Source of the DNA: a virus
DNA: 64,000 bases
Direction: 5' to 3' (one strand)
Virus record (IMG/VR): IMGVR_UViG_3300009082_000002
Location: 1 to 64,000 of that record
The notes below the pieces were generated by a model that did not search any database, was not told the DNA's origin, and was given only the letters and a program-made list of their open reading frames with translations. A program made the position numbers and the translations under genes. Below are positions 8,592-39,518 of the stretch, one piece after another (position 1 is the stretch's first letter; every line of letters begins with the position of its first letter).

Positions 8592-9221
8592 ATGCCAACG
8601 CTCGAAGAGATCCGCAGCCGCTTCGCGAAGTCGACAGCGACCGCCCGTCGTGAGGCCGAGCAGAAGACCAACGAGGAGCGGAAGGCCGCAGAGGCGGCAG
8701 AGCAAGCGCGCCTCGTTGAAGAGGCGCGCGAGCTAGCCGAGCGGTTTCGCGCAGAGCAGGAGGAGACCAAAGCCGAGATTCTCGAACGGAAGAGGGCCGA
8801 GCTTGCGCGGATGGCCGAGATGGAACGCGAGGAGGCCACGCGCAGAACGGCCGAAGCAGCTCGCCTTGCCGAAGAGCGTGACAGGGCTGCGGCGCGTGGA
8901 GCGAAGCCTCACGCCGTGGTGCTGCGTTCCGACGAGCATGCGTGCGAGGTCCGTCATCTGGAGTACCGCGGCGGCAGCTCGCGCAAGTTCTGGATGGCCG
9001 GCGTCGTCGGGTGTCGGCTGGTCCGTCGCTGGGGCCGGATCGGCACCACAGGCCAGGGCCAGTGGCAGGAATTTTCTAGCGAGGCGATGGCGCGGAGCGA
9101 GCTTGAGGATCTCTTTCGCCGGAAGCTGGCCAAGGGCTACGCCGTCGCGGATAAGAGTCTGACGCTGGTGGTTCGTTTTTACGTGGACGGGACGGTCGGC
9201 TGGCGGAAACTCCCGGACTGA
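8592..9221 (+). CDS. WGR-domain protein with coiled coil
   Basis: 209 residues. It begins with the shared tag MPTLEEIRSRF (see findings). Residues about 15-105 are a charged coiled coil of Ala/Glu/Arg. The C-terminal ~100 residues match a WGR domain: the core RRWGRIGTTGQ, then EFSS and a KLAKGY helix. WGR domains bind nucleic-acid ends in PARP-family and other proteins. ATG with GGAGAGGAGG upstream. It follows the CobT-like gene closely and may be co-transcribed. Confidence 0.7.
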   Translation: MPTLEEIRSRFAKSTATARREAEQKTNEERKAAEAAEQARLVEEARELAERFRAEQEETKAEILERKRAELARMAEMEREEATRRTAEAARLAEERDRAAARGAKPHAVVLRSDEHACEVRHLEYRGGSSRKFWMAGVVGCRLVRRWGRIGTTGQGQWQEFSSEAMARSELEDLFRRKLAKGYAVADKSLTLVVRFYVDGTVGWRKLPD

Positions 9222-9250
9222 CGCCGGGCAGAAGGATCGAGGAGGGTGTC

Positions 9251-9583
9251 ATGGGTGTGCAGTATACCAAGTGTCCGAAATGTGGCCATGCCGTCGTGCT
9301 GCCGGTCAAGATGCGGCGCGAGCTGGCACGGCGGATCGAGGGCGTGCCGGGATTGTGGATGCCGACCGACTACAACGGTCTCTCGCGCGGAGACGAGTTC
9401 CTGATCCTGCTCAACAACCTGGGCCGCGTCGGCCAGCGGTTCCTCCGCGGGTTCATCTTGCGGAAGTACCAGGGCATCGCGTACACCGTCGTCGGTACTC
9501 GGCGCGGCGGTCGCGGCTTCGTGGACAAGGCGACAGTTGCCAACGCGGCGGCGATCTTCTGCCGAGTGAGGGACGAAGAATGA
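9251..9583 (+). CDS. small zinc-motif protein, unknown function
   Basis: 110 residues. It starts with CPKCG (residues 8-12), half of a zinc ribbon, followed by a basic region and the motif GRRFVDK-like GGRGFVDKAT. No second CxxC pair is seen. RBS GAGGAGG precedes the ATG. Not recognised. Confidence 0.6.
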   Translation: MGVQYTKCPKCGHAVVLPVKMRRELARRIEGVPGLWMPTDYNGLSRGDEFLILLNNLGRVGQRFLRGFILRKYQGIAYTVVGTRRGGRGFVDKATVANAAAIFCRVRDEE

Positions 9584-10269
9584 AGGGGATTGAACGTAGA
9601 CGCCCGGAGCTTGCGCCCACTGGGGAGAACGTGCTCCGGTTCGTGAACATGCTCCGTACTCAAGCCTTCAAGCTGGCGCGGGCAGAGCAGATCGAAGTGG
9701 AAGACGCGCGGCAGGAGATCGCGATCTGGGTCGCGGAAGCGCTGGCTCAATTCGACTCGCACGCTGGCCCGCTGCGTCCGTGGGTGAAGCGGTATGTCAG
9801 CTTCAAGGTGGTCGGTCGCGTTCGCATCGCGAGCGCGGTCAAGCGCGTGCCGACCCTCTGGGAGTACGAGCAGGAGATCGGCTGGCAAAGGATGCGTGCT
9901 CCGGTAACTGGTGACCTCGGCGTCATTGATGACCTGCCAGCGGATGCGGAGTCGGCGCCGACGCCCGAGGCGCTCCTCCTGCAGGCCGAGCGACGGCAGC
10001 GGTTTCGCGACGCTATCGACGCGGCTCGGGCTCGCCTGCTGGACGCGAGTACGCCGACAACGCGGGCTGTTGCGGAGCGGGTCTTCGACGGCCGCCTGCT
10101 AGAAGCTGTGGACAGCGGGCGTGGTCGTCGTGACGACGCGGTCAATTATCTGCGAGATGAGCTGCAGGCAACGCGACCGCAGGAGCGGTACCACTGGTTG
10201 AAGGCCCGCCGCCTGCTGGAGCAGGAACTTCGGGCGCGTGGTGAATTATGTGGTCCGCAGGCGCGCTAA
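9580..10269 (+). CDS. putative RNA polymerase sigma factor-like protein
   Basis: 229 residues. Residues about 30-85 resemble sigma-70 region 2: an acidic EDARQEIAIWVAEAL helix, then FDSHAGPLRPWVKRYV and a basic FKVVGRVRIAS helix. The C-terminal half is helical and could hold a region-4-like helix-turn-helix, but this is unclear. If real it would redirect host RNA polymerase to phage promoters. The ATG overlaps the previous stop; a longer upstream frame is a shadow. Confidence 0.45.
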   Translation: MKGIERRRPELAPTGENVLRFVNMLRTQAFKLARAEQIEVEDARQEIAIWVAEALAQFDSHAGPLRPWVKRYVSFKVVGRVRIASAVKRVPTLWEYEQEIGWQRMRAPVTGDLGVIDDLPADAESAPTPEALLLQAERRQRFRDAIDAARARLLDASTPTTRAVAERVFDGRLLEAVDSGRGRRDDAVNYLRDELQATRPQERYHWLKARRLLEQELRARGELCGPQAR

Positions 10270-10328
10270 AGAGCGAACCATCAACCGCAAGGCGCGAGAC
10301 GCCGCGAAGAGAAGAAGGAGGAAACGAG

Positions 10329-11504
10329 ATGGCGAAGAAGGACGAGACCAAGAAGGAGATCGTGTGCCCGAACTGTCTGGGGCTCCACGCGGCCGACGTG
10401 ACCTGCGACGGCGACTCCGACGCGAAGGACGCCTCGTTGCGCGCAGCCTGCCCTGCCAAAGCGACCTGCCTGCGGCTGCAGGAGTTCGCCGCGGAGGATG
10501 GCCGCGACCCGGACGAGCTGGTGGCGGGCAAGAAGACGCTCACCGAGGTCGAGGCGTGGCTCGACGCACAGGCCGACAAGGAGGGGTCCGAGCCCGACGA
10601 CGCCGCGGATGACGACGAGGACGAGAGCGAGGACGACGACGAGAACGAGGACGAGGAGGACGACGAGGAGGAGGAGCCCGAGGGCGAAAACGTGAACGAG
10701 GATGGCGAGGAGGAGACCGAGCCCGCCAACGAGGAGGAGACCATGGTTCAGAAGGCCGAGAAGAAGGCTGGCAAGGCCAGCAAGCCGAAGGCCAAGCCCG
10801 AGGCCAAGCCGAAGGCCAAGCCGAAGGCCAAGCCCGAGGCCGAGGCCAAGCCCGAAGCCGAGGCCGAAGCCGAGGCCGAGCCGAAGAAGAAGGCCAAGGA
10901 CGAGGAGCCCGCCAAGGCCAAGGAGCCCGCCAAGGCCAAGGAGCCCGCCAAGGCCAAGGAGCCCGCCAAGGCCAAGGAACCCGACTGCTTCGGCAAGCCG
11001 GAGGAGTACGACGGCAAGAGCGACCGCTGCCTGGACTGCTCCTCCGCCAACAACTGTCGCCGCAAGGTGTACGTCACGCGCGCCGTCGAGAAGCGCAAGG
11101 CCGAGCGCAACGGCGACGCGGCGCCTCCCGCGGCCGAGGTCAAGGCCAGCACCAAGCCCAAGGCCGAGCGGAAGCCGCGCGCGAAGACGGCTCGCAAGTC
11201 GGCCAAGGGCAGCGACCCGATCCTCGCCATCGCCAAGGCCAAGGGCTGGACGGTGGAGCAGTACGGCAACCACTACGAGGTCTGTCGGACCGAAGGGCTG
11301 ACCGCGGTGCCGATCCTCCGCGTGTTTACCGACCAGGCGCTCGTCCGCGCGGGCCAGCTGCGCAGCAACCCCGCCGACGTGCTGGGCGCGGAGTCGGTCA
11401 GCGAGTCCGTGGCCGAGGGCTTCAAGTACGACATCGCCACGGGCACCAAGACGGTGGTGAACGCGCTGGCCAAGCTCCTCGACGCCGAGCCCGCGATCGT
11501 TTAA
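10329..11504 (+). CDS. acidic and Lys/Ala/Pro-repeat protein with Cys motifs
   Basis: 391 residues in four visible parts: an N-terminal CPNCLG zinc-like patch; a D/E-rich stretch (about 90-135); a KPKAKPEA / EPAKAK low-complexity region; and a Cys motif C-F-G-x8-16-C-x2-C-x5-C shared with the ssDNA-binding candidate at 16364. The last ~110 residues look folded. RBS AAGGAGG lies before the ATG. The shared Cys motif and acidic region suggest a replication or DNA-binding role, but no function is assigned. Confidence 0.6.
   Translation: MAKKDETKKEIVCPNCLGLHAADVTCDGDSDAKDASLRAACPAKATCLRLQEFAAEDGRDPDELVAGKKTLTEVEAWLDAQADKEGSEPDDAADDDEDESEDDDENEDEEDDEEEEPEGENVNEDGEEETEPANEEETMVQKAEKKAGKASKPKAKPEAKPKAKPKAKPEAEAKPEAEAEAEAEPKKKAKDEEPAKAKEPAKAKEPAKAKEPAKAKEPDCFGKPEEYDGKSDRCLDCSSANNCRRKVYVTRAVEKRKAERNGDAAPPAAEVKASTKPKAERKPRAKTARKSAKGSDPILAIAKAKGWTVEQYGNHYEVCRTEGLTAVPILRVFTDQALVRAGQLRSNPADVLGAESVSESVAEGFKYDIATGTKTVVNALAKLLDAEPAIV
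10905..10976 (+). repeat. four tandem copies of an 18-base unit
   Basis: The unit GAGCCCGCCAAGGCCAAG is repeated exactly four times and encodes EPAKAK within the Lys/Ala/Pro-rich protein. A likely site of length change. Confidence 0.85.
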
Positions 11505-11505
11505 C

Positions 11506-12066
11506 GTGCCGACCCTCGACGAGCTGCGCGCACGGTTCAAGCGCGGCCGTGCGCCAAAGCCCAACGCACCCCGTCCGGTCAAGCTGCCGGACGGGGTTGC
11601 GCCTTGTGCTGCGTGCGGCGGTCGCGGAACGGTCGACATCGACGGCGGACCAAGCGGCCGACTGCCGCGGTCCGTGAAGTGCGGGCGGTGCGGCGGCAGC
11701 GGTTGCGAGCCCAAGAACTTCGGTGCAGAGCCGGTCGAGGCGAAACGTGGCGAGGAGTTCGTCGAGGAGCACCCGCGCCTGGCTGGCGGGGACGATGATG
11801 CGCGCGCCAAGCGGCGCTTTGACCCGCGGAAGTTCGCAGAGCGAAGGATGAAGGTCAGCCGCGAGAAGTACAAGCTGGCGACGGACGCGCACGGCCAAGC
11901 GGACGCCATTATTTTTTTTGGCAAGCACAAGGGATCGAAGGTGTCGGAACTTGCCCACGCGGAACCGAAGTATCTCATGTGGATCTTGGGCGAGGAATTC
12001 GATGCGGAGCTCAAGCACGCCATCATCCAGCAGCTCGGCCTTGACGCGGAGGACTTCGGGCTATGA
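11506..12066 (+). CDS. zinc-finger protein with exonuclease X-like C-terminal domain
   Basis: 186 residues. It begins with the shared tag MPTLDELRARF. A DnaJ-type zinc module has CAACGGRG and CGRCGGSG. The C-terminal ~45 residues (FFGKHKGSKVSEL ... YLMWIL ... LKHAIIQQLG) match the small domain found at the C-terminus of exodeoxyribonuclease X-like proteins. No DEDD nuclease domain is present, so it is probably an accessory DNA-binding protein. The GTG start is one base after the previous stop, and the gene overlaps the polymerase gene that follows. Confidence 0.65.
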   Translation: MPTLDELRARFKRGRAPKPNAPRPVKLPDGVAPCAACGGRGTVDIDGGPSGRLPRSVKCGRCGGSGCEPKNFGAEPVEAKRGEEFVEEHPRLAGGDDDARAKRRFDPRKFAERRMKVSREKYKLATDAHGQADAIIFFGKHKGSKVSELAHAEPKYLMWILGEEFDAELKHAIIQQLGLDAEDFGL

Positions 12067-15000
12067 CCTGGGCCAACCTGCACGTTCATTCGATGTTCAG
12101 CTTGCTCGACGGCGTGGGCTCATATGAGGACTATGCCGCGCGGGTGTTGCGCGAGCTGGAGCGGGAGAGCGATTCCGGTCCCGGTTACCTCGCCGCGACC
12201 GAGCACGGCTCGATGAGGGGACTCGTCCGGTTGAAGAAGGTTGCCGACGAGAAGGCGCTCAAGCCCGTCTTCGGGATCGAGTTCTATGTCGCGAAGGATC
12301 ATAGAATCAAAAGCCTGACGGAAGCGGACCGCAAGCTGGTCAAGGATCAGCCGTCGAAGGAGCGGCGCAGTTTTCAGGCTGCGCTGGAGAAGTACCGTGG
12401 CGTCCGACCTCGCTACCACCTCACGGCGTGGGCGCTTAACAACGCCGGGCTCTCGAATTTGATCCGGCTTTCGTCGCGCGCGTGGGTTGATGGATTCTAC
12501 TACTCGCCGCGGATCGACTTCGACCTACTGGCCGAGCACGGCGAAGGCATCGCGGTCGGGACTGCTTGTTTATCTGGTCCGCTCGCCGAACCAGTGCTGC
12601 GCGGCGAGCCACGTGTAGCTATTGAGAACGCGGAGCGGTTGCGTGACATATTTGGCGACCGGCTGTTCGTTGAGGTCATGCCAACTGCTATGCCAGAGCA
12701 GGACAAGGTGAACCGCGCGCTGGTCCGCATTGCAGAGCGGCTGGGCCTGCCACTGCTCGCGACGACCGATACACACTACGCCAAGCCGAAGGACTGGCGG
12801 CTTCAAGAGGCCCTGCTCTGTGTGCAGACCAACGCGAAGATGAGCGACCCGGATCGCTTCCACTTCACGGCTCGAGACTTCTGGTACCGCAGCGCGCGCG
12901 AGATGCGCGCAGCCTTCGCGGGTTATCATCCTTGGATGAGGCGCCGCGACGTGCTCTCGGCTCTCGCCAACACTGGCAGGCTAGCCGCAGCGTGCGAGGC
13001 GAACCTCGCCTTTGACCGTTTTGCTGCCCTTCTTCCGAGCCCGGCTGGCCGCGAGACGACGCCAGCCGAGGACTTCACGACGCTCAAGAACCTCTGCGTC
13101 CGCGGCTGGCGTGACCGCGCAGTGCCGGAGCGCGTGCGCTGGCTTGTCCGTCACGGTCGCGGCAAGTCGGAAGACGTCGATCGCCGGTATCGCGAGCGGC
13201 TCAAGCGTGAGCTATGCGTCTTCCGAGATCTGAAGTTCAGTCGTTACGCCCTCATCGTGGAGGACGCTGTGGCCTTCGCTCGCAGCCGCGGGATCTTTGT
13301 CGGCCCTGGCCGCGGCAGTGCTGGTGGTTCGCTTGTTGTCTTCCTTCTCGGGATCACAAGCATCGATCCGATTGAACACGACCTTCTATTCGAGCGCTTC
13401 ATTGCGCCCGGTCGAATCGACTTACCCGACATCGACATCGACTTCGAGCAGGAGCGACGGCACGAGGTCATCGAGTACATGGTCGAGAAGTACGGGCGCG
13501 AGCACACCGCGCAGATCACGACCTTCTCCTCGATGAAAGGGCGTGGTTGTTTCCGCGACGTCGCGCGTGTGTTCGGTGTCGGGCCGGAGGAAGTCAACCG
13601 AGTCGCCGGTACGATCCTTCAGCGGTTACCCGGAGAGGAGCGCGAGGACCGAGCTATCACGGATTCGCTGAAGATCTCGCCGCAGTGCAAGCGCTTCAAG
13701 AAGAAGCGGCCCATTGTGTTCAGCGTGGCGCAGCGGCTCGAAGGCACGCTGCGACAAGTCGGGCTGCACGCTGGCGGCGTGGTCGTGTCGCCTGTGCCGC
13801 TGGACCAAGTGGTGCCGCTGGAGAGCAGGCCTGGCGAAGGTGGCTTGCGCGTGCCCGTCATCGCGGTCGACTTCCGCGACGCGCAGGAGTTGAGCCTGGT
13901 CAAGATGGATTTCCTCGGGCTGAAGAACCTGACCGCGATCCGGTACGCGCTGGGAGCTGTCGAGGAGCATCACGACGCCGAGGTCACGCTGGAGGATCTA
14001 GAGGCCAGCCACTTCGACGACGCCGATGTCATCGAGGCGTTCAACGACCACTCGAAGCTCGTCGGGATTTTCCAATTCGACACGACCAGCATGATCTCGA
14101 TCATGCGCTTCACCGTCCGGCGCTTCGAGGACCTCGTCGCGCTCAACGCCCTCAACCGACCGGGTGCGATGCGGTCCGGCCTGGCCGTCATGTACGCCGC
14201 TCGCGCGGACGGTCGGAGCAAGGTGAAGAAGACGCACCCGATTGTGGATGAGATCACAGCCTCGACGCTGGGCGTGCTCACCTACCAGGAACAGGTCTCA
14301 CGGATCTTCGTCGAGCTGGCCGGCTACGACCCGGGCGACGCGGACAAGATCCGAAAGAAGATCGGCAAGAGCGAAGGCGAGAAGGCCATCAAGCCAGAGG
14401 AGGCCAAGTTCATCGCTGGTGCGGCTGCTCACGGGCTGGACCCGAAAGACGCGGCCAAGCTGTTCGCGAAGATCTTGAAGTTCGGTGGGTACGCCTTCAA
14501 CCGTTCGCATGCGGCCGAGTACTCGGCCCTAGCGTATTGGGAGATGCTGCTCAAGGTCCGGTACCCCGCCGCGTTCTACCTCGGCCTCCTCCAGTCGGAA
14601 GACAAGCCCGAGAAGACTGCGCGCTACATCGAGGCCGCGTCGCGGGATGGCGTTGAAGTCCTGACGCCGGACGTGAACCAGAGCCGCGATGTCTATGTGC
14701 TGGCAGACGGTGCAATCCGGCCCCCACTGATCGGGATCAAAGGCGTCGGTCCCAAGTCGACCGCGAGCATCCTAGCGCAGCAACCTTTCCGATCCTTCTC
14801 GGACCTCATCGAGCGAACCGACTCGCGCTCCGTGAACCGGACCGCCTTGTCCGCGTTGGTTCTCGGCGGTGCGCTGGACAGCATCATCCAGAATCGCCGC
14901 TTTGTGTACGAGGAGTTAGAGCGGCTAGTCAACGCAGCACGGAAGGGCGACGGCGCAGTCGTGGACACGGAGATCGCGATGAGCGGTAAGGGTTCGCCCG

Positions 15001-15785
15001 ATTTCGAGCCGCGCGAGCGGGCTCGTCTTGCAATCGGGGCCGGCGTGGTCGGGCCTGGCCAGTCGATGCTGGACGCATACGCTGATCTCTGGGAAGCGCT
15101 GGAGGCAAAGGGTGTCGAGCTGACGCGGCTTGCCGAGATCGACTGGGGCGAGGCGTTGATCTGGGCCAAGGCGGTCGCGCGAGAGTCGAAGACGATCACG
15201 ACAGATGACGGACGCGTCGCTTCGCTGGTCCTGACTGACGGGTCCGGCGTGGACCTCCGCGCCAGGATGGAAGCCGATGAGCTGGACGTGTACGAGAAGG
15301 CCGTGGCGCGAGCGCAGGGCAAGGTGGTCCTGGTCCGCGCAAGCCTGAACGCGAAGGCGAAGCAACTGCGCGCGCTGCAAGTCTGGGACGGCGCTGCGCT
15401 TCACGACGCATGGAAGCGCGAGGCGTTGACGGCCGCGCAGGCCGCGGTCTTCCGAAACCCGTTGCGCAAGTTCAAGCCAAGGTCTGACCTGCGGAAGGGG
15501 AAAGCGCTAGAGCAGGACTGGCTTCGCTTCACGGGTCGTGTCGAGGCGGTCAAACTCTGGAAGGATAAGAATGGACACGCGATGGCCTTCTTCGACGTGC
15601 AGGCTTATCGCGGCTCCGTATCCGCGGTCTGTTTCGCGTCGAGCTTCAACGCGTACCAGGCGCACCTCCGACCTGGTGTCGTGGCACGCTTCGAGTTGAT
15701 CCGCGGCGGCGGTGGCGGTTGGCTGCTGGACGCCGACAGCGGGTGCCGAGTGGAGCCCTTGGAAGATGGTCCACACCGGGGCTAG
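12063..15785 (+). CDS. dnaE: DNA polymerase III alpha subunit
   Basis: 1240 residues, close to bacterial DnaE (about 1160). The N-terminal PHP domain starts NLHVHSMFSLLDG. The C-family polymerase active site is seen as PDIDIDFE near 455-462, with the third Asp expected nearby in palm. Helix-hairpin-helix (GIKGVGPKS) and C-terminal OB-fold segments follow. It should be the phage replicative polymerase and work with the phage sliding clamp at 44 kb. The start overlaps the ExoX-like gene (ATGA-type junction). No inteins are seen. Confidence 0.95.
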   Translation: MTWANLHVHSMFSLLDGVGSYEDYAARVLRELERESDSGPGYLAATEHGSMRGLVRLKKVADEKALKPVFGIEFYVAKDHRIKSLTEADRKLVKDQPSKERRSFQAALEKYRGVRPRYHLTAWALNNAGLSNLIRLSSRAWVDGFYYSPRIDFDLLAEHGEGIAVGTACLSGPLAEPVLRGEPRVAIENAERLRDIFGDRLFVEVMPTAMPEQDKVNRALVRIAERLGLPLLATTDTHYAKPKDWRLQEALLCVQTNAKMSDPDRFHFTARDFWYRSAREMRAAFAGYHPWMRRRDVLSALANTGRLAAACEANLAFDRFAALLPSPAGRETTPAEDFTTLKNLCVRGWRDRAVPERVRWLVRHGRGKSEDVDRRYRERLKRELCVFRDLKFSRYALIVEDAVAFARSRGIFVGPGRGSAGGSLVVFLLGITSIDPIEHDLLFERFIAPGRIDLPDIDIDFEQERRHEVIEYMVEKYGREHTAQITTFSSMKGRGCFRDVARVFGVGPEEVNRVAGTILQRLPGEEREDRAITDSLKISPQCKRFKKKRPIVFSVAQRLEGTLRQVGLHAGGVVVSPVPLDQVVPLESRPGEGGLRVPVIAVDFRDAQELSLVKMDFLGLKNLTAIRYALGAVEEHHDAEVTLEDLEASHFDDADVIEAFNDHSKLVGIFQFDTTSMISIMRFTVRRFEDLVALNALNRPGAMRSGLAVMYAARADGRSKVKKTHPIVDEITASTLGVLTYQEQVSRIFVELAGYDPGDADKIRKKIGKSEGEKAIKPEEAKFIAGAAAHGLDPKDAAKLFAKILKFGGYAFNRSHAAEYSALAYWEMLLKVRYPAAFYLGLLQSEDKPEKTARYIEAASRDGVEVLTPDVNQSRDVYVLADGAIRPPLIGIKGVGPKSTASILAQQPFRSFSDLIERTDSRSVNRTALSALVLGGALDSIIQNRRFVYEELERLVNAARKGDGAVVDTEIAMSGKGSPDFEPRERARLAIGAGVVGPGQSMLDAYADLWEALEAKGVELTRLAEIDWGEALIWAKAVARESKTITTDDGRVASLVLTDGSGVDLRARMEADELDVYEKAVARAQGKVVLVRASLNAKAKQLRALQVWDGAALHDAWKREALTAAQAAVFRNPLRKFKPRSDLRKGKALEQDWLRFTGRVEAVKLWKDKNGHAMAFFDVQAYRGSVSAVCFASSFNAYQAHLRPGVVARFELIRGGGGGWLLDADSGCRVEPLEDGPHRG

Positions 15786-15832
15786 CTTGCGAACCATGTA
15801 GCAGGGCCAACAGGCCCAGAAGGAGCAAGGAC

Positions 15833-16351: not shown

Positions 16352-16363
16352 GAGGATCGACCG

Positions 16364-17587
16364 ATGGGAAAGACAGATATCGCGAAGCTGAAGAAGTACA
16401 AGCGGGAACGCTCGACGGGGAAGTTCTTGCTCATCCCCGAGGGCGACTCTCTCATTTACCTGGCCCCCGCCGCGCGCGAGAACTGGGATCTCCCCTTCCT
16501 GGAGACGGCGGTTCACTTCGGGCTCTCCGGCACGGTCATGTGTCTGAACCCTGATCGCAACCCGCTGCTCAAGGACGAGGAGTTCCTCAAGCTCTGCAAG
16601 AAGGCCAAGGTGGACGTCACCGGCCCGTGCCCGATCTGCCAGGCGCTCCAGGGCAAGCCCGGCAAGCCCGGGCTCTGGGACACGGACAAGGAAACGGCGC
16701 GGAAGATCAAGTGCTCGCCGCGCTTCATCATGGCCGCAGCCCTGCTCTACCATCGCAAGGACTCGACGCTCGACTACGCGCCGCGCGAGCCCTTCGAGGT
16801 GCGGCCCATGCCGCAAGGCAAGAAGAATTGGGAAGCCTTCGTCGACGTGTTCATCGACCTCGACCGCGACATCACCGACCCGATGGAGGCCGTCCTGATC
16901 AAGATCCACCGTGACGGCACGGGCGTCGAGAGCCAGTACACCTGCGCGGCCGATCCCAAGTCCGCGGCCAAGCCGATGTGCCTGGCCAAGTCCGCGCGCG
17001 CCAAGATCCGCGAGGCGCTCCAGCCCGGGTCCGAGTGCGATCCCTACGTCGTCGCGCTCGACTGGGTCAAGCCGAAGTCAGAGCTGACCGCCATGCTCGA
17101 CGGCATCGACATCGACGACGACGACGACGACGACGAGATCGAGGAGCCGGGCGGCAGCGAGGACGAGAAGGAGGGCGACGAGTGCTTCGGCCTCGACTAC
17201 GACCCGCGCGACGAGGACTGCCAAGGCTGCGCCAGGGCCAAGGCCTGCGCAAAGGAGGCCGGGCACGCCGACGCCACTGACGACGACGAGGACGAGAAGT
17301 CGGGCGAGGACGACGACGAGGACGAGAAGTCGGACGAGGACGACGAGGACGACGAGGACGACGACGAGGACGACGACGAGGACGACGAGAAGTCGGACGA
17401 CGGCGAGAGCGAGGAGCCGGGCGACGACGATGATCTCGACGAGCTGGAGAAGGCGCTCGACGAGAAGCGCACCAGCAAGTCCCCGAAGACGAGCACCAAG
17501 AAGTCCCCCGCCAAGGCGGCGACGGCCGCGAAGGGTGCGGCGGCGGCGAAGTCCGACAGGACCAAGCCCCGCAGGCGCCCGGCCTAG
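16364..17587 (+). CDS. gp32-like single-stranded DNA-binding protein (putative)
   Basis: 407 residues. The folded first ~240 residues include a CPICQ zinc-like site (about 88-92) and a basic beginning LKKYKRERSTGKF. The tail is extremely acidic (Asp/Glu runs from about 245), interrupted by a C-F-G ... C-x2-C-x5-C motif, and ends in a basic Ala/Lys stretch. Acidic tails and a zinc site are typical of T4 gp32-type proteins. Position between UvsY-like and UvsX genes supports the call. Sequence identity was not tested. Confidence 0.55.
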   Translation: MGKTDIAKLKKYKRERSTGKFLLIPEGDSLIYLAPAARENWDLPFLETAVHFGLSGTVMCLNPDRNPLLKDEEFLKLCKKAKVDVTGPCPICQALQGKPGKPGLWDTDKETARKIKCSPRFIMAAALLYHRKDSTLDYAPREPFEVRPMPQGKKNWEAFVDVFIDLDRDITDPMEAVLIKIHRDGTGVESQYTCAADPKSAAKPMCLAKSARAKIREALQPGSECDPYVVALDWVKPKSELTAMLDGIDIDDDDDDDEIEEPGGSEDEKEGDECFGLDYDPRDEDCQGCARAKACAKEAGHADATDDDEDEKSGEDDDEDEKSDEDDEDDEDDDEDDDEDDEKSDDGESEEPGDDDDLDELEKALDEKRTSKSPKTSTKKSPAKAATAAKGAAAAKSDRTKPRRRPA

Positions 17588-24865: not shown

Positions 24866-25167
24866 AGCTGAAGGTCATCGCTTCCGAGCTGCCCGCTCAC
24901 GCCCGCGAGCTGCGGCGTGAGCTGCAACAGCACCGCGCGGACTTGGAAGTGAAACGCGTGAAGATCGACGAGCTGCGTGCGCGGCTCTGGCGCTACTTGC
25001 AGCGCGAGTTCAACCTCGATCTGAATGGAAAGCAGTACCGTATTGACGCGGCCGGGCAATTAGTCGAAGTCGAAGAGGAGCAGAACCAAGGGGGCGAGGA
25101 GTCGGTGGCAGGTGCGGTCGCTGCGCGGTATCTCGCGAGCCGCGACGACGATCCGGGTCTGCACTGA
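24862..25167 (+). CDS. coiled-coil protein, unknown function
   Basis: 101 residues. Residues 8-55 form a charged helix (ELRRELQQHRADLEVKRVK), followed by an acidic Gln/Glu stretch. It starts inside the previous stop. No domain recognised; position before the amidase gives no strong hint. Confidence 0.55.
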   Translation: MKLKVIASELPAHARELRRELQQHRADLEVKRVKIDELRARLWRYLQREFNLDLNGKQYRIDAAGQLVEVEEEQNQGGEESVAGAVAARYLASRDDDPGLH

Positions 25168-29460: not shown

Positions 29461-30572
29461 TGCCTCACATTGCCAGCCAGCAGAAGGCCCGCATTTTCTC
29501 TGTTCCGTGGGAGTGGGAACAAGCCGTCGCGGTCCTGCTCAACCTCGCCGAGGTCTGGTCCCGCCGGCCTATCGTGCGGCCGACGTCGACCGAGATTGCT
29601 GCCGATGAAGGCTTGTCGAATCGCGGTTTCTCGCTCACCAACAACACGCTCGCTCCGCTGCGGCGAGCAAAACTCCTGGAGTTTACTCGCGCGCGGCCGA
29701 TGGGCTGGCGGCTTACGCGGACGCCATCCAGGATCTCTGCTCTTGACATCTGCACCGGCATCGGTGGCCGGAAGACAGATAGCCTGTTCGTTCACCTCGC
29801 GATGCGCGTGCCGCGGTCGCAGCTGCGACGCACTCGCTCGCATCGTGGGCTTGCTGACCCCCAGGCGTGGCTATTCAACTCGCTCAACCAGACCGTCGCA
29901 GAGAAGCTGCGGACGACCTCGCTCGCGAAAATTCTTGCGACCAGTCTCGGGCTTGAGCCCGTGGTTCTCTACCGCGACACTTACGTCAAGAACCGCTACA
30001 CCGTCTCGCTGGCCGACAGCGTGCGACCGGTCTTGCTGGAGTTCGCGCCGCTCATCGAAGTGATGAACGGCGCCCTCGTCGCGTGGACCTACTCCGGGAT
30101 CATCAAGAGTCTGCGCGGTTGCTTCCGGCCTTGGCACGACGCCCTGCCCGAGAAGACCTACGACGAGCCGCGACGGATCAAGCCGGTCGACCTTTTCGAG
30201 CTGTACGAGTTGGTCACGAGCGGAGTCGCTGTCAAGCCGGAGCCCGGCGAGATCGCTCTCTTCAAGAAGTGGGAGCGGCTGTGGGCGACAGAGGTCTGCC
30301 ACCAGGCGCCGGGCAGCATCGCCGTTGTCGAGGGTACGCCGTGGAACAAGCATCCGTCCTTCGAGGTGTTATGCACGGACCGCGCAGCGCTTATCGACTT
30401 CGCCCGCAAGGTCGGTCGTGACGAAGCCGTCGATGGAATCTGCGAAGGCGGGCCAGGCGAGCCCGTGCCGATGACCAAGGTCGCAACTATCAGAAGTGAC
30501 GGTTGCTGGTCCTTCACGGACCGGCGCGAGCGGGCAGAGGTCATTTACCGGCGGCTGGCTGGCACTCTCTAA
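29460..30572 (+). CDS. unknown protein with N-terminal winged helix
   Basis: 370 residues. Residues about 40-95 look like a winged helix (TSTEIAADEGL, NTLAPLRRAKLLEF, a wing). The rest has no motif I recognise. It begins at the ATG overlapping the previous TGA. It lies among replication and DNA-binding genes. Confidence 0.5.
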   Translation: MPHIASQQKARIFSVPWEWEQAVAVLLNLAEVWSRRPIVRPTSTEIAADEGLSNRGFSLTNNTLAPLRRAKLLEFTRARPMGWRLTRTPSRISALDICTGIGGRKTDSLFVHLAMRVPRSQLRRTRSHRGLADPQAWLFNSLNQTVAEKLRTTSLAKILATSLGLEPVVLYRDTYVKNRYTVSLADSVRPVLLEFAPLIEVMNGALVAWTYSGIIKSLRGCFRPWHDALPEKTYDEPRRIKPVDLFELYELVTSGVAVKPEPGEIALFKKWERLWATEVCHQAPGSIAVVEGTPWNKHPSFEVLCTDRAALIDFARKVGRDEAVDGICEGGPGEPVPMTKVATIRSDGCWSFTDRRERAEVIYRRLAGTL

Positions 30573-32385: not shown

Positions 32386-32386
32386 G

Positions 32387-33129: not shown

Positions 33130-33398
33130 GTAGCCAGGGCGAAGACGAGATCCTGTGGCTGGCGGCGCTCGCCTGCGCGCGGACGGCCGACGCGCTGGTT
33201 TCGGTGCGTCACTTCGAGGTTGTCGCGGCTCTGGCTGGAATCGAAGCCGCAGTCGAGAACGCCCACGGGTGCTGGTGCCGCGCGAAGGATGCGAACGCCG
33301 GGCCGTGCGCTTGCTGTGAGCTGCGCGAGCTGCTCGGCATCGCGCAGCCGCGCGAGAGCAGGTTCTATCGAGGCGAACCGTCGAGGGCCAGGGGGTGA
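33126..33398 (+). CDS. Cys/His-containing small protein
   Basis: 90 residues. A cluster GCWCRAKDANAGPCACCEL suggests metal binding. GTG start inside the previous stop. Not recognised. Confidence 0.5.
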   Translation: MSSQGEDEILWLAALACARTADALVSVRHFEVVAALAGIEAAVENAHGCWCRAKDANAGPCACCELRELLGIAQPRESRFYRGEPSRARG

Positions 33399-33402
33399 TG
33401 GA

Positions 33403-33885
33403 ATGAGCGCTACCGTATTCGCTCGCCAGCCCGACCGGTACGAGATCGTTGCGCTGCCAGTCGAGCGCAAGCCCGGCTGCCTGACTGTCAACCCGACTCT
33501 GGTAGACATCCTCTATCGCGAGACGATCGGACAGATCCTCGCGGAAGGCGTCCAGCTCGGCGGCGAAGCCGGCTACCAGCGCGTCATCCACGGCCTGCAG
33601 ACCATCGTCAAGCTCCGCATGGGAGCGCGAGGTGCAAGGATGCCGAGCGATAGCAAACAGTCGCTTTTGAAGCTGATGGAATCTGCGGCAGGCAAGATGT
33701 TCGAGGTTGTAGTCCGCGAGACCGCGGATGACCTTGCCATGCCGCGCGAGCTGGTCCGCAAGGCCTTCGGCGAGCCGCAGCCGGATGACGGGCCGGAGGT
33801 GACCGCGGCGCGCGAGAAGCTCATCCAGTATTTTTCCTGTGCGTCGCGCCTCGAAGCGCGGGCCGTGGTCAGTAAGGACGTCTAA
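33403..33885 (+). CDS. helical protein of unknown function
   Basis: 160 residues starting at the ATG after GGGGGTGATGGA. Mostly alpha-helical; the middle holds basic and acidic helices (KQSLLKLMESAAGKMFEVV). It overlaps the tagged gene that follows (TAATG). No motif recognised. Confidence 0.5.
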   Translation: MSATVFARQPDRYEIVALPVERKPGCLTVNPTLVDILYRETIGQILAEGVQLGGEAGYQRVIHGLQTIVKLRMGARGARMPSDSKQSLLKLMESAAGKMFEVVVRETADDLAMPRELVRKAFGEPQPDDGPEVTAAREKLIQYFSCASRLEARAVVSKDV

Positions 33886-34313
33886 TGCCGACGCTGGACG
33901 ATCTGCGCGAGCGCTTCAAGCAACACCGGCCGCGAGCGCTGCGCCGTGACAACATCCGGTCGGTGCCGTCCGGCAACGTGCCGTCGACCGAGTGGATGTC
34001 AGTCAAGCCGCTGCCAGCGTGGGCCAGCCCGGCCGACGCGGAGATTCTCGACACGATACGGATCAAGATTCGCGTGTCCGAGAGAACGATCGAGAGGTTG
34101 TTCCGACCGCCGATGAATGAGCGCGAGCTGCGTGTCTTCTTCCTTGACCGCTTGCTCGCGGTGCGCGGCGTGACTTCGCTGTCGCCGGAAGAGATCAAGC
34201 CCATTGCGCGCGACTGCGATCTTTCGTCTGGCGACTTCATCTTCATCGTCGAGGTGCCGCGCCGGTTGCGCGCCGCCCTGGCTGATGAGTTAATCGAGGA
34301 GATCAAATTATGA
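33885..34313 (+). CDS. tagged protein of unknown function (MPTLDDLRERF)
   Basis: 142 residues. It has the same N-terminal peptide as the WGR, ExoX-like and 38547 proteins, then a segment DTIRIKIRVSERTIERLF and an acidic C-terminus. No catalytic motif. Overlap TAATG with the previous gene. Confidence 0.6.
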   Translation: MPTLDDLRERFKQHRPRALRRDNIRSVPSGNVPSTEWMSVKPLPAWASPADAEILDTIRIKIRVSERTIERLFRPPMNERELRVFFLDRLLAVRGVTSLSPEEIKPIARDCDLSSGDFIFIVEVPRRLRAALADELIEEIKL

Positions 34314-34798
34314 TCTGGCACGTGCTCGCCGGCCTGGCTGTGCTGTTCCTGATTCTGATCTACGCGGCCCGCGCCCGCATCGTCCGCGGCAGGAAGATCC
34401 ACGTCCGTGTGCCTGACGAGAGCGTGGCGCAGACGGACCCGCGCGAGGCTGTGCGCGTCCGGCTGCACACCGCGATCAACTGCCTGATGACGGCCAAGCT
34501 CCACGTCGAACGTGGTTTGAAGGCGAAGCTCTCCACGCGGAAGACCGACGAGCTTCGCAATCGGCTGTTGACCGAGCTGGCAGTCGCGCAAGGTGGACTC
34601 GCCGAGCTGTTGCTCGCTGTCCGGCCCGAGCGAAGCGACGTCGAGGACCTGGAAGAAGAGATCGAGGGCGCGACGCCGAAGGTTGTGCAACTCGACCAGG
34701 GCCGCGGACTGCCGCCCATCGAGAACGGTGTCTGCGTGATCTGCGGGAAACTCCCTTGCCGGCACTATCCGTTCAACGCCGGGGAGCAGAACCGATGA
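34310..34798 (+). CDS. membrane-anchored helical protein
   Basis: 162 residues. Residues 4-20 (HVLAGLAVLFLILIYAA) are one TM helix, then a basic RGRKIH and a long helical region; CVICG plus PCRHYP near the end could bind zinc. Unknown role. Confidence 0.5.
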   Translation: MIWHVLAGLAVLFLILIYAARARIVRGRKIHVRVPDESVAQTDPREAVRVRLHTAINCLMTAKLHVERGLKAKLSTRKTDELRNRLLTELAVAQGGLAELLLAVRPERSDVEDLEEEIEGATPKVVQLDQGRGLPPIENGVCVICGKLPCRHYPFNAGEQNR

Positions 34799-35313
34799 CC
34801 GTGCTGACGCTGCCAGAAGTCGCTGCCATGCTGCGCCTGAAGAACGAACGCACGGTGCGCAAGTGGTGTCGCGCTGGCAAGGTGCCAGGCGCCTTCAAAA
34901 CCAGCGGCGCTCGTGGCCGTTGGCGCATTCCGTCCAGCACCGTCGCGGTGCTGGTGAGCAGAGGAGGAGACATGGTCGAGAACGAGGGAAACGACACGCT
35001 GTCACTGGATGAGTACCTGGCACGTCACGGCTTGCGCCGGCTGCCGTGCGGGCTCCACTCCCGCATCAACGCCACGGCCGAGCCAGTGGTGGAGCTGTGG
35101 GTTGACGCCTGCATCAAGGACGGGAGGCCGGAGGCTGCGCTCATCTTCCGGCTCACGCGGGCCGATCTGGAGATCGTGAGCGCGCACCTGGGGCGGATCG
35201 AGCTGGCCGCTTCGCTCGGCTCGATGCTGAAGGGGTTGGGGCTGTGCTCGACCTCATCCGGCGCCCTGCGGGACGCGTCGAGCATGAAGCCGTCAAGGTA
35301 CATGGAGAGCTGA
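34795..35313 (+). CDS. excisionase/MerR-like HTH protein
   Basis: 172 residues. Residues 1-45 match HTH_17 ([29 protein letters not shown] ... RWRIPSS), the DNA-binding domain of excisionases and small MerR-type proteins. The rest is unassigned. It may control local transcription or recombination; no integrase is in the window. Confidence 0.6.
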
Positions 35314-35314
35314 C

Positions 35315-36142
35315 ATGCGCGCGTTGGTGTTCCTGATTCTTCTGGCCGGCTGCACGACCGACGACGGCCAGAACGGAGAGCAAGGGTTGCCCGGCCCGCA
35401 GGGCGAGCCAGGCGAAGCGGGTGCGCAAGGCCCGCCTGGTCCGCCTGGCGAACGCGGCCCGCAGGGCGTGGCTGGAGAGCGCGGCCAAGCCGGCGAGCGG
35501 GGGCCAGCGGGCGCACAGGGCCCGCCAGGAGCGCAGGGTACGATCGGAGAGCGTGGCGAGCCCGGCCTGCAGGGAGAACGCGGCCCAGCGGGCGCGCAGG
35601 GCCTGCCTGGTGCGCGAGGAGAGCAGGGCGAGCAGGGTACGGCTGGCGAGCGTGGTCCGCAGGGTGAACCCGGCGAGCGGGGGCTGGCAGGCCCTGCTGG
35701 CCTGCCAGGTCCAGCCGTGGTCTGGTGCGATGCCTCCGGCTCCTTCGTCGGCTTCGGCAGCGTGACCGATACGCGGCTCTGGTACGCGGACCGGGACGGC
35801 CTGTTCTGGAAGTTCGACGTTGGCTGGCTCACGCACTCGCCCGATGACCTCGCGGTCTACTGGACCGAGCCCGGCTGCACCGGCACGGCCATCGTGGCCG
35901 AGCGAGCCCCGCGCGTCACCTTCCGCACCGATGGCGAGTACCGCGTCCGCGGGCTTGAAGTCGCCAGCTTGCTCGACGTGCAGGCCGCGTCCGTGACGCA
36001 GTTGAGCGGCCAGTGCGCCGAGAGCGGTCAGTTCTTCTACCGTGCGCTACCGCTCGACGCGCTGGCCGTCGTGACCGCGCCGGACCTGCCATTTTCCCGG
36101 CCGCTGTACCCGGCGGTCGGCTCGTGTCAAGAGGAGGAGTGA
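35315..36142 (+). CDS. collagen-like lipoprotein
   Basis: 275 residues. A short hydrophobic leader ends in a lipobox LLAGC with Cys13 and Thr at +2, which in Gram-negatives points to the outer membrane. From residue 18 to 134 there are 39 uninterrupted Gly-X-Y triplets (G-P-P, G-E-R, G-A-Q), a full collagen-like stalk. The C-terminal ~140 residues hold a folded domain with paired Cys, possibly a head. Collagen-like domains are common in phage fibres, but a lipobox on one is unusual. It may act on the infected-cell surface. Confidence 0.7.
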
Positions 36143-36143
36143 G

Positions 36144-36596
36144 ATGTCCAGACGAAGGCAGTGGTTCGAGACCATGGCGGCTGCGGTTTCCGCCGCGGCA
36201 ATCTACACCGAGAGGGACGGCAAGAAGCACCGCGTCCAGAAGATCGCGTGGAGTTCAAAAGGCGAATTCTACGTGTCGGCCGCGGGTGCCAGCGCTGGCA
36301 CCCCGAAGGCGAAGGGCGCTGCCGCGCGAGCGGCAAGCCAGAGTGCCAAGCTGTCCAGTCGGGTCAGCTCGGCGTCGAAGAAGCACTCCGCGCCAGCGAA
36401 GCTCCGGGCGCCGAAGCGTGGTGACGTCTACCGGGACCGCGACACGCGTATCAACGGCGAGCGCCTGCTCACGGTGCGGGCGATCCTCGATGACGTCGCT
36501 CACTGCGACGTCAGCATGAACGCGGAAGCCACGAATCGCAAGGTGAAGATCAAGCTCAAGCGGCTCGCGAGCCGCGACTACGAGCGGGTCGTCTAG
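36144..36596 (+). CDS. basic Ala/Lys-rich protein, unknown function
   Basis: 150 residues, strongly basic. A low-complexity middle (KGAAARAASQSAK) joins a small folded end that resembles a DNA- or RNA-binding piece (RNRKVKIKLKRL-like). RBS GAGGAGTGAG upstream. Starts after the collagen gene stop. Confidence 0.45.
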   Translation: MSRRRQWFETMAAAVSAAAIYTERDGKKHRVQKIAWSSKGEFYVSAAGASAGTPKAKGAAARAASQSAKLSSRVSSASKKHSAPAKLRAPKRGDVYRDRDTRINGERLLTVRAILDDVAHCDVSMNAEATNRKVKIKLKRLASRDYERVV

Positions 36597-36648
36597 TGCT
36601 TTCGGTGCTTTGAGAAGCTGACCGGCCGGAAGCCGGGGGAGGTAGTCG

Positions 36649-36858
36649 ATGGGTGACGAGCTGATCGGGACCGCGGAGGCTGTGCCAGTCTGCCAGGTGC
36701 GCGACCGCTGCAACTACGCCGACCAGGGCGCGTGTATCTACGCGGACCCTGCCGGCTGGTTCGAGCCCGAGGTCCGCGTGACGCGCTCGCGGAACCCTGA
36801 CCGGCCGGCGTGGCGGTTCGGCTGCGTGGCCTTCGTCGAGAAGCGGAGGCCCGGATGA
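36649..36858 (+). CDS. small Cys-containing protein
   Basis: 69 residues with four spaced Cys. RBS GGGGGAGG lies before the ATG. Not recognised. Confidence 0.5.
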   Translation: MGDELIGTAEAVPVCQVRDRCNYADQGACIYADPAGWFEPEVRVTRSRNPDRPAWRFGCVAFVEKRRPG

Positions 36859-37169
36859 GCTGCCCCGCCCTCGACCGGCTGTTCTACCGCGTGATCGAAC
36901 CGGACACGCCGGACGGCCTGCCGCGTGCGCGCCGCTTGCGGCCGGACGAGGTGCTGCGGCTCGAAGCGAAGCTCCTGTGCCGGATGAAGACCGAGATCGG
37001 CGCGGTGTTGAAAGAGCACGGCCGCCCTGGTGCAGCCGGCCCAGCGATATCGAAGGCGGTCGCCGCCGCGCTGCAGGAGCTTGCCGAGCAGGAGGGCCTG
37101 GCATCCAAGGCCAGCGTTCACTTCTTGGGCCTCGTCATCGAGGACGATCTGCCCGGCCCGGAAGCGTGA
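36855..37169 (+). CDS. helical small protein
   Basis: 104 residues, helical, overlapping the previous gene (ATGA). Contains SCPALDRLF and an Ala-rich helix. Function unknown. Confidence 0.5.
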   Translation: MSCPALDRLFYRVIEPDTPDGLPRARRLRPDEVLRLEAKLLCRMKTEIGAVLKEHGRPGAAGPAISKAVAAALQELAEQEGLASKASVHFLGLVIEDDLPGPEA

Positions 37170-37237
37170 GTCGCGCCTTTTCTGGTGCGAGTGAACTGCT
37201 TAAAATCATTAGCTGAATCGGCTCGCTAAAAAAAAAC

Positions 37238-37265
37238 TTGCAATTAGCTTTGCGCCGTGTAGAAT
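37238..37265 (+). promoter_or_regulatory. sigma-70 promoter with 16-base spacer
   Basis: TTGCAA (37238-37243), 16-base spacer ending CCGTG, TAGAAT (37260-37265), preceded by a run of nine A. The region after -10 (CCATGGGAAAGAAAAA) resembles the leaders at 51806 and 53204. It should drive the 37318-39916 gene group. Confidence 0.75.
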
Positions 37266-37317
37266 GGCAGCCATGGGAAAGAAAAATCACATCGCGTTAA
37301 CCGGAGGAGAGGCGAGC

Positions 37318-37539
37318 ATGAACGATCAAGAGTATGAGATGGCCAAGCGGATCTCGCACAGCAAGAGCTGCTCGGTTTATCGCGACTGGCACGGCGGCCA
37401 CGGTGGCGGATTCATCGCTGCGCTGCGCGGGGAGTTCGACACCGAGGCTGGCGTCCACGAGTGGATCGTGCTCGGAGTTTTCGCTTCGCGTGGCGAAGCG
37501 CAGAAAGCCGTCGCGACCGCGATGGGCTGGGAGGCGTGA
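37318..37539 (+). CDS. small protein, first gene after the 37.2 kb promoter
   Basis: 73 residues. ATG 37318 has CCGGAGGAGAGG upstream; an upstream ATG at 37264 would lie at or before the transcription start and is rejected. It contains HGGHGGG and an Ala-rich helix. Unknown. Confidence 0.6.
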   Translation: MNDQEYEMAKRISHSKSCSVYRDWHGGHGGGFIAALRGEFDTEAGVHEWIVLGVFASRGEAQKAVATAMGWEA

Positions 37540-37541
37540 CG

Positions 37542-37877
37542 ATGAAGGCAATCATTTTCAAGCCCGCGAAGGCCTGGATCGAGAACCTGCGCGAGGGCGA
37601 TCTTGCACCCGACTGCTTCGGCCGCCTGGCCGAGGTGGTGCGGGTCAGCTACCGCGGAACCGACACGCTGGGCCGCGAGTTTGTCGGCGTCGACTTGCTG
37701 TTCGGCGAGCGCGGCACGATCAGCGACTCCTACAAGGCCGGTCGGATTCATCGCAGCGTACCGCTCTGCAACCGGTACACGAGCGCGGAGCTGGATGCGC
37801 TGGAACGGCACGCGCCGGAGCGCAGCGACATGTTTCTCGGCGACCATGGCGACGACCTGGTCGAGCTGGAGGTGTGA
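37542..37877 (+). CDS. acidic small protein, unknown
   Basis: 111 residues, mixed alpha/beta look, acidic end (LELEV-type). Starts 3 bases after the previous stop. Confidence 0.55.
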   Translation: MKAIIFKPAKAWIENLREGDLAPDCFGRLAEVVRVSYRGTDTLGREFVGVDLLFGERGTISDSYKAGRIHRSVPLCNRYTSAELDALERHAPERSDMFLGDHGDDLVELEV

Positions 37878-37878
37878 C

Positions 37879-38112
37879 GTGGATCGCCGGTACTACAGCC
37901 GCAGGCACTTCGAGCTGCTCCGCAATGGCCCGCCAGACACCGCCGAGACCATCGCGGAGCGGCTGCGCCAACGTGCCGCCGCGGAGCAGGCGATGCGAGA
38001 GCGCGACGAGCGCTGGCCGGAGCTGACGGCCGAGAACGCTGGCGAAGCGCTGGTCTGGCAGCGAGCCCGTGAGCGCGAGCTGTGCGAACTGCTCGCAGCG
38101 GAGAAAGCATGA
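37879..38112 (+). CDS. helical small protein
   Basis: 77 residues from GTG 37879, charged helices. Overlaps the next gene by 4 bases. Unknown. Confidence 0.5.
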   Translation: MDRRYYSRRHFELLRNGPPDTAETIAERLRQRAAAEQAMRERDERWPELTAENAGEALVWQRARERELCELLAAEKA

Positions 38113-38411
38113 ATTTGACGCACATCCCGCACCATGCGGAGACAGGTGGCGACTATGTGCGGATCAAGTTCCGTCCGGTCGCGGCTGACGGAACTGAACT
38201 CCGCGCCCGCTGGGCGTGGGCTGTCCGGCTGCACGCCGGCCAGACCAGGCTTCCGCGCTACCTTCTGATCACGCGCGAAGGCGAGAACGTGGTCGCCGAC
38301 CGCGAGCAGGACAACGTGATCACCGAGACCCGTTCGATCCTCGTCGGCACGCCAATGGAGGAGCGGCCAGCCGCCATGAACTTGAAGTACGGCTGGCTAG
38401 AGGAAGTCTGA
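38109..38411 (+). CDS. small protein of unknown function
   Basis: 100 residues, beta-rich look. Begins in an ATGA overlap and ends in TGATG with the next frame. Confidence 0.55.
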   Translation: MNLTHIPHHAETGGDYVRIKFRPVAADGTELRARWAWAVRLHAGQTRLPRYLLITREGENVVADREQDNVITETRSILVGTPMEERPAAMNLKYGWLEEV

Positions 38412-38563
38412 TGGCGAGTAAACTTTCTGGCGCAACGCTCGTCGATCGGGCTCACTGCCGAAGGCCACACGTGGGCAGAGGAAGCCTCCGGTTGAACCCG
38501 GGCCAGAGGCGAAAGCAGGACGACGTGGACGCGGTACGGGGACGTGATGCCGACGCTCGATGA
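38411..38563 (+). CDS. possible 50-residue basic protein
   Basis: Open frame linked by TGATG to the gene before and overlapping the start of the tagged gene by 17 bases. Arg-rich, no motif. It fills an otherwise empty gap but may be chance. Confidence 0.3.
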   Translation: MASKLSGATLVDRAHCRRPHVGRGSLRLNPGQRRKQDDVDAVRGRDADAR

Positions 38564-39518
38564 ACTTCGACGCCGTTTCAGGAAGGACACGCGGCTCAAG
38601 CCCGGCGGCCGGTCAGGTACCGTCTCGCCCAAGCTGAAGCTGGAGCTGAAGACCACTGGCAGCGACGGCAAGCCGCTGTTCACAGAGGAAGCCCTGCTCG
38701 AGATGGTGCGGTTGGAAGCGAACTTCCTCGCCAAGCTCGGCATCCCGCCAGAGCTTGTGCTGCCGACGCTCGAACATGCCAAGTCGGATGACCCGGCCCG
38801 CATCGCCGAGGCGATTTTCGATCTCGCGGACAAGGCTGGGATCGGACTCGGCCCCGCCGCAGTCGCGACGGCCAGAATCAGGACCCAGCTCGCGAGCCCA
38901 TGGCTGGAAGAGTTGCTCCAGCGGGTGAAATCCGAGATGCGCAACTCCGTCCACCGACACCGCCGGAGCTACGCGGAAGTCGAGTCCGCCATCGGTGACT
39001 TTCTCAACGGGGCCCGAGCCGCGTGGACGCCGAGGGCGGACACGGACCCTGCATGGTCGCGCCCACACGCGGAAGCTGTGCGCGAGGCCACGAGCGCGCT
39101 GGATGCGGACTGGCTGGCGAACGAGTACGTGGTCAAGACCTTTAGCACGACCGCGACCGTGGAGCTGCACGGCCGCGGGAAGATCCACATTGGCACACCA
39201 ACGGTCGTCCTCGCGACGCGGGACGGTGTCGTGCCGTGGATGCTGGTCGACAGGCTGTTCTATCGCTGGCAGAAGAAGACCGGGAAGCGCGACGGCAGGA
39301 CCGTCTTCGAGCATGACGTCGCGATGGCGACGGTCAAGGAGCTTGGCCGCCGCGCCGGGTTGAGGCTGACGACGGACCGAGTACTTCTGAACGACTTCGC
39401 AATCGTCCCCAACCGCAAGAACTCGTCAGGCTATCTGTACACGCGACTCGTCATGCGAGCGGAGGACGCGAACGCGTTGATCGCGATGACCAGCCGACAC
39501 GGAGGGGACGACCGATGA
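38547..39518 (+). CDS. tagged protein of unknown function (MPTLDELRRRF)
   Basis: 323 residues. It begins with the shared N-terminal tag, then helical and beta segments without a recognised domain; FRKDTRLKPGG follows the tag. The C-terminal ~100 residues look folded (RLTTDRVLLNDFAIVPNR). The gene overlaps the next by 4 bases. Confidence 0.55.
   Translation: MPTLDELRRRFRKDTRLKPGGRSGTVSPKLKLELKTTGSDGKPLFTEEALLEMVRLEANFLAKLGIPPELVLPTLEHAKSDDPARIAEAIFDLADKAGIGLGPAAVATARIRTQLASPWLEELLQRVKSEMRNSVHRHRRSYAEVESAIGDFLNGARAAWTPRADTDPAWSRPHAEAVREATSALDADWLANEYVVKTFSTTATVELHGRGKIHIGTPTVVLATRDGVVPWMLVDRLFYRWQKKTGKRDGRTVFEHDVAMATVKELGRRAGLRLTTDRVLLNDFAIVPNRKNSSGYLYTRLVMRAEDANALIAMTSRHGGDDR

Follow-up and report, generated by a model that had tools for sequence, protein, structure and literature searches.

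Shared N-terminal peptide on four dissimilar proteins

Why should one phage begin four otherwise dissimilar proteins with nearly the same peptide? The question is raised by the first 64 kb (hereafter, the window) of the 107,406-base IMG/VR phage record IMGVR_UViG_3300009082_000002, a record that encodes a tail sheath, a portal, a terminase, and a major capsid protein (MCP), the last with ca. 35% identity to its nearest isolated relatives. We found the N-terminal peptide (hereafter, the tag) to be genuine and widespread; its conservation is at the peptide level and is concerted within each genome, and it tracks a pair of genes encoding CobS- and CobT-like proteins (together, CobST).

The four gene starts at which a preliminary description had placed the tag (8592, 11506, 33885, and 38547) were confirmed, the one at 11506 opening with GTG, and their consensus is MPTL[DE][DE][LI]RxRF. 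The bodies of the carrier proteins are, as had been claimed, mutually dissimilar: one has a WGR domain, one has an ExoX-like_C domain, and two belong to no family. A degenerate nucleotide pattern for the peptide matched exactly four times in the window, compared with a mean of 0.00 and a maximum of 0 in 100 shuffles, and found no fifth copy in the entire record. When protein pairs with a shared N-terminus were searched for without bias, the tags ranked first or near first in this phage (G000) and in two of its relatives (G001 and G008). The peptide has the properties of a short linear motif, being short, present on unrelated proteins, outside folded domains, and above chance. The string VKIDELRARL at position 24958 of the window was dropped because it is internal to a longer open reading frame (ORF) that likely starts upstream.

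Among 84,980 cellular genomes (257 Gb), the degenerate pattern had 42 matches, and only one family, PaaI-like thioesterases (named from sequence, not from a search), recurrently carried it at true gene starts. These proteins were rejected as related carriers, their matching segment being an unrelated helix.

Dialects and carriers of the tag in related viruses

The proposal that MPTL-type starts be sought in other phages proved fruitful: a pattern search of viral contigs led to three distant relatives (G001, G003, and G005), whose replication and structural genes are 25–55% identical to those of this phage. The relatives are mostly uncultured contigs, some of them fragments, and their gene starts are predicted. 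A first loose scan of 40 relatives found no tag, because most of them lack CobST and the others use dialects that the pattern missed; this was later resolved by reading whole contigs. A DnaE scan for family sampling was dropped as too unspecific, and MPSIEEIRSRF at 29936 of G001 was dropped as internal to a 321-aa ORF.

Across 35 tags, the core is L-x-[DE]-[LIMF]-R, located 2–4 residues from the start, with exceptions at the acidic position. Around this core, each phage uses its own dialect: MPTLDELRRRF, MKLDELRKRYxKG, MKLEDLRxL, MNLxDLRNKARKG, or the longer MPTLDELRxWARGxxVxGLP. In the closest relative (G008; MCP 80% identical), the homologs of the WGR and ExoX-like proteins begin MAPSLAEMRDRFSKG and MKLTDLRKRYSKG, respectively, and further carriers begin MKLDELRKRYARG, MDLNEFRHRYRKG, MKLNELRHRYRKG, MKLRDLRRLFRRG, and MPTLDELRSLFSK. 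The tagged proteins of the relatives comprise WGR proteins, an ExoX_C-like protein whose gene precedes dnaE, small zinc proteins, and unknown proteins. Two proteins carry the tag in G001: one is WGR-like, with a weak Pfam match (E = 0.045), and the other is a small zinc protein. In G003, it is carried by an ExoX-like protein and by the product of the gene directly 3' of cobT, and in G005 by an ExoX-like protein encoded directly 3' of cobT. The ExoX-like protein of other relatives has a longer tag, MPTLDELRRWARGExVEGLP, and two proteins of G015 have the long version. Six tagged proteins were found in G058 (five with M[KN]LxxLRxK or similar), five in G050 (four of them consecutive, with an MKL[DE][DE]LR start), and three in G048.

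The tag is kept while the linkers behind it diverge among homologous carriers, namely in the ExoX alignment, in the WGR pair of G000 and G008, and in the small zinc protein. The last family is tagged in three versions: MPTLDELRRRF in G001, MPSLEALRDWFRG in G015, and MKLEELREMFSG in G022. On unrelated carriers, tags were more alike within a genome than between genomes (mean BLOSUM score, 25.3 vs 19.4), and none of 2000 label shuffles reached this value; without the ExoX-like proteins, the means were 26.4 and 20.6. At identical tag residues, the codons differed in 158 pairs and were the same in 141. Since the codons differ while the residues stay, selection acts on the peptide. The claim that the shared stretch is a tag rather than a folded domain is thus upheld: it is short, N-terminal, family-wide, and on unrelated proteins.

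Co-occurrence of the tag with CobS and CobT

To identify what accompanies the tag, we profiled 30 genes over 23 relatives, eight tagged and 15 untagged. The CobS-like AAA+ ATPase and the CobT-like von Willebrand factor A (vWA) protein were present in 8/8 tagged and 0/15 untagged relatives. When all 126 candidate gene families of G015 were profiled without bias, this distribution was confined to the cobT and cobS loci, cobS being represented by an overlying antisense ORF. The next-best family was the ExoX-like carrier, which is missing in G001, a genome that still has two tagged proteins. In a wider set with other query phages, CobT occurred in all 14 tagged records and in three of 18 untagged ones, these three being records with CobT already known; here the ExoX-like carrier family alone scored as well as CobT. 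Nine records were fetched by the tag pattern or an ExoX-like match, two of them near-duplicates of G015 and G022; all nine had CobT and eight had the tag, G056 being the untagged one.

The tagged phages were polyphyletic in a tree built from terminase, portal, capsid, and sheath proteins. Untagged relatives without CobST (G028, G027, and G020) adjoined tagged G035, G005, and G000/G008, respectively, the G027/G005 node being weakly supported (66). The same three untagged genomes encode DnaE and the single-strand DNA-binding protein (SSB). A tagged gene lies directly 3' of cobT in four genomes (G000, G008, G003, and G005).

CobS/CobT-like pair and tag carriers of this phage

The coordinates of the features are given in Table 1. 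The first two genes form an AAA_5/MoxR-type ATPase adjoining a vWA protein with a metal ion-dependent adhesion site (MIDAS). Both fall well short of the cobaltochelatase equivalog cut-offs (TIGR01650, 65 bits vs 558; TIGR01651, 59 bits vs 759). PADLOC gave weak P-loop ATPase matches only. The MIDAS residues of the CobT-like protein are invariant in eight relatives. Its N-domain, a candidate metallopeptidase domain of the group 2.2 type, has a conserved HExxH and N-x3-D-x-R-x-E motif, with HExxH invariant in alignment A6 and degenerate in G005, and an AlphaFold2 (AF2) model of this domain had no fold match in the PDB. Degenerate repeats of the DQGESE type form a long run in the acidic middle of the protein.

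Table 1 Features of the window, with their positions and the basis of each assignment.
Feature	Coordinates	Strand	Basis or remark
CobS-like MoxR-clade AAA+ ATPase with N-terminal zinc-finger-like segment (proposed motor)	5045..6274	+	AAA_5 1e-12; TIGR01650 CobS 5.5e-18
CobT-like protein (proposed receptor): HExxH N-domain, acidic low-complexity middle, C-terminal vWA with MIDAS DxSGSM	6288..8576	+	CobT_C 3.3e-21
Carrier 1: tag, long charged linker, C-terminal WGR domain	8592..9221	+	Pfam WGR E=5.4e-15
Tag copy 1, MPTLEEIRSRF	8592..8624	+	ATG start
Carrier 2: tag, linker with CxxC zinc motif, ExoX-like_C domain	11506..12066	+	Pfam ExoX-like_C 2e-5, just under cut-off
Tag copy 2, (GTG)PTLDELRARF	11506..11538	+	GTG start read as M (VPTLDELRARF)
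DnaE-type DNA polymerase III alpha (rival partner); its gene directly follows that of the tagged ExoX-like protein	12063..15785	+	NCBIfam 1e-236
Probable single-strand DNA-binding protein (rival partner)	16364..17587	+	Position and comparison with annotated relatives; no family match
Carrier 3: 142-aa protein without known family	33885..34313	+	No family match
Tag copy 3, MPTLDDLRERF	33885..33917	+	ATG start
Carrier 4: 323-aa protein without known family	38547..39518	+	No family match
Tag copy 4, MPTLDELRRRF	38547..38579	+	ATG start; alternative GTG at 38544

Carrier 1 begins 16 nt past the end of cobT, and its homolog at the equivalent position in G008 begins MAPSLAEMRDRF. Another phage (L382, G060; ca. 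5157) also has a WGR-like ORF, there immediately upstream of a cobT-like gene, which echoes the WGR gene beside cobT in the window. The gene for carrier 2 overlaps the dnaE start. Carrier 2 matches Exodeoxyribonuclease X with its C-terminal segment alone, and the N-terminal DEDD exonuclease domain was not found in it; the tag is conserved in the 14-member alignment A5 of ExoX-like proteins. In an AF2 model of the ExoX-like protein, tag residues 4–12 are helical, with a predicted local distance difference test (pLDDT) score of ca. 81 over the first ten residues; residues 13–120 are mostly of low confidence, consistent with a linker, and residues 121–180 form an ordered domain with pLDDT >90 over most of its length. 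A helix that stands alone ahead of a linker modelled with low confidence likewise agrees with a tag that is not a folded domain. Separately, a zinc-like motif, CFG-x(n)-C-x2-C-x(n)-C, recurs near dnaE (window ORF 10248–11504) and in the C-terminal part of SSB (16364–17587), and it is also found in SSU5-like phages (L461, L462, and L463).

Proposed recruitment of tagged proteins by the CobS/CobT-like pair

Because the tag sits on unrelated proteins, has a dialect per virus, and was found only alongside CobS/CobT, it is probably a label that brings proteins to a machine. We infer from the co-occurrence that it is an N-terminal recruitment tag whose most likely docking partner is the phage's own CobS/CobT-like pair, a reading to which we give about an even chance. 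The tag would be a short linear motif that forms a brief amphipathic helix ahead of a flexible linker, and a myovirus-like phage family would attach it to a varying range of small proteins, most of which bind nucleic acid or zinc. The helix may dock on the vWA MIDAS face of the CobT-like protein or on the N-terminal segment of CobS. The AAA+ ring could then pull on the carrier, remodel it, or present it to the HExxH domain, which may cleave, and might also act on a DNA-bound complex held by the carrier. The carriers could themselves be the substrates, or they could serve as adaptors delivering DNA-bound complexes to the machine.

An acidic ligand residue is bound by vWA MIDAS sites (PMC6624252, PMC9976466), and an extended peptide can also be bound (PMC7159879). 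Rea1/midasin and NorQ-NorD likewise combine an AAA+ motor with a vWA/MIDAS receptor that engages clients via an acidic ligand residue; however, their ligands are folded ubiquitin-like domains or a surface patch, whereas here a short N-terminal peptide would be bound (PMC6624252, PMC9976466).

Several points weigh against docking on CobST. G056 has CobT and an ExoX-like protein but no tag, and the CobT-positive fragments G042 and G060 have no visible tag. In the isolates Salmonella phage SSU5, Pseudomonas phage nickie, and BUCTxx99, cobTS adjoins dnaE, and no such N-terminal tag was seen in the stretches examined. In G053, lysine occupies both usually acidic tag positions, which misfits strict MIDAS coordination; since an acidic residue is not strictly required there, the proposal is weakest in its MIDAS detail. 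CobST, the ExoX-like gene, and the tag travelling as a module can yield the same co-occurrence. In addition, the phyletic match is a correlation over a modest number of independent transitions, and several contigs are fragmentary with predicted gene starts.

In jumbo phages, a MoxR AAA+ ATPase is paired with a vWA protein fused to a metallopeptidase and has been proposed to act in virion assembly and processing (PMC7824862), and phage CobST has elsewhere been read as cobalamin genes (PMC8651126). The CobS- and CobT-like proteins of the window are likewise a MoxR AAA+ and vWA pair, the vWA protein having an HExxH N-domain. Phage pairs of this kind are common, and the available portions of these two papers, which read them as virion-assembly chaperones or vitamin B12 genes, describe neither clients nor a client tag (PMC7824862, PMC8651126). 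Unlike in those proposals, the clients here would be small early proteins with an N-terminal peptide. It is conceivable, though we would put it below even odds, that a phage MoxR/vWA/HExxH machine has its own N-terminal client code, in which one short helix, in a genome-specific dialect, would direct small early proteins of open-ended number to an AAA+ remodeller or protease; this would be the first client-recognition tag for the widespread phage CobST pair. If so, candidate clients are marked by sequence and, for each phage, inspecting the gene starts is enough to list them, which makes the question testable. Phages would then use a short recruitment code at the protein terminus, with a dialect in each genome, and the code can mark uncharacterised early proteins for study.

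Alternative explanations

The tag might instead dock on the replisome, the peptide binding phage DnaE (or SSB) and bringing accessory DNA-binding proteins to the fork while CobST is merely co-inherited. All tagged phages have DnaE, most genomes have the tagged ExoX-like gene adjoining or overlapping dnaE, the carriers look nucleic-acid binding, and the N-termini of the SSB family loosely resemble the tag (phi-x-x-phi-[KR]-x-x-[FY]). However, these SSB N-termini lack the acidic positions of the tag, and the presence of DnaE and SSB in the untagged, CobST-less genomes named above is at odds with this explanation, which we consider unlikely.

Equally doubtful is a docking tag for another hub, either a protein of the host, such as its polymerase or a nucleoid factor, or a phage protein outside the screen. 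Any single partner would suit concerted dialects within genomes, and the dialects could stem from differences among the partners in different hosts, but the match with cobS/cobT across polyphyletic lineages is not predicted. The host beta-clamp motif was rejected, since its pattern includes Gln and the tag has none. Likeness to the RecA N-terminal helix and to the N-terminus of ribosomal protein S12 was rejected as superficial.

In T4-type capsid targeting, the prohead protease cleaves off the targeting sequence at a conserved [LI]-x-E site. Like the tag, the peptides that direct cargo to encapsulins and microcompartments are short, terminal, and often helical, and go with a flexible linker on unrelated cargo; their sequences are unrelated to the tag, and the partner proposed here is not a shell. 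The preliminary description had compared the tag with the capsid-targeting sequences of T4 internal proteins, and the logic is indeed the same, a constant, short N-terminal peptide on otherwise unrelated phage proteins whose variable cargo diversifies behind it (PMC3012670). Nevertheless, a capsid- or core-targeting role now appears very improbable. Besides having a different sequence, the tag is absent from 15 relatives with the same terminase large subunit, portal, and MCP, and its presence tracks the CobS/CobT pair, not the head genes. There is no conserved T4-type cleavage site, the E of L-x-E being D, Q, A, or K in several copies. The carriers are small putative nucleic-acid-binding or zinc proteins, and several are among the early or replication genes. 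Of the broader suggestion of a sorting, packaging, or processing tag, sorting or processing in a wide sense is still the best idea, whereas capsid packaging is supported by neither the carriers nor the head genes.

Finally, a leader with a translational or regulatory role and conserved at the nucleic-acid level, or a recent duplication of 5' ends, would place the tag at gene starts as observed, but has almost no chance of being correct, because about half of the codons differ at identical residues; the tag is therefore no copy of a leader DNA. A true repeated expression leader does exist elsewhere in this phage: at 51744–51850 and 53142–53250 of the window, near-identical promoter-like sequences (TTTACA ... 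TATAAT) with a 45-nt leader precede two different genes. The corresponding pair at 51804 and 53202 was rejected as a tag, being a DNA-level promoter-leader repeat in which 1/45 nt differs, and the tag is accordingly not a repeat of that kind.

C-terminal ends shared by proteins of related phages

Shared ends of another type were also noted. In the cobT-bearing contig 3300022696_000130 (L450), seven ORFs end in WF, several of them in [PS]DSDxxWF, giving a common C-terminal tail on unrelated small proteins. Protein pairs with common C-terminal ends (..GGWA; ..WATW) occur in Pseudomonas phage nickie (L462; 41459/42151) and Salmonella phage SSU5 (L461; 18241/46436), both of which also have the cobTS–dnaE arrangement mentioned above. 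FWxG[VI][LI]-like ends were found on two or three proteins per phage in G015, G022, G025, G031, G033, G056, and G058, in likely structural regions. Since these ends occur with and without CobST, they are perhaps a virion-assembly signal.

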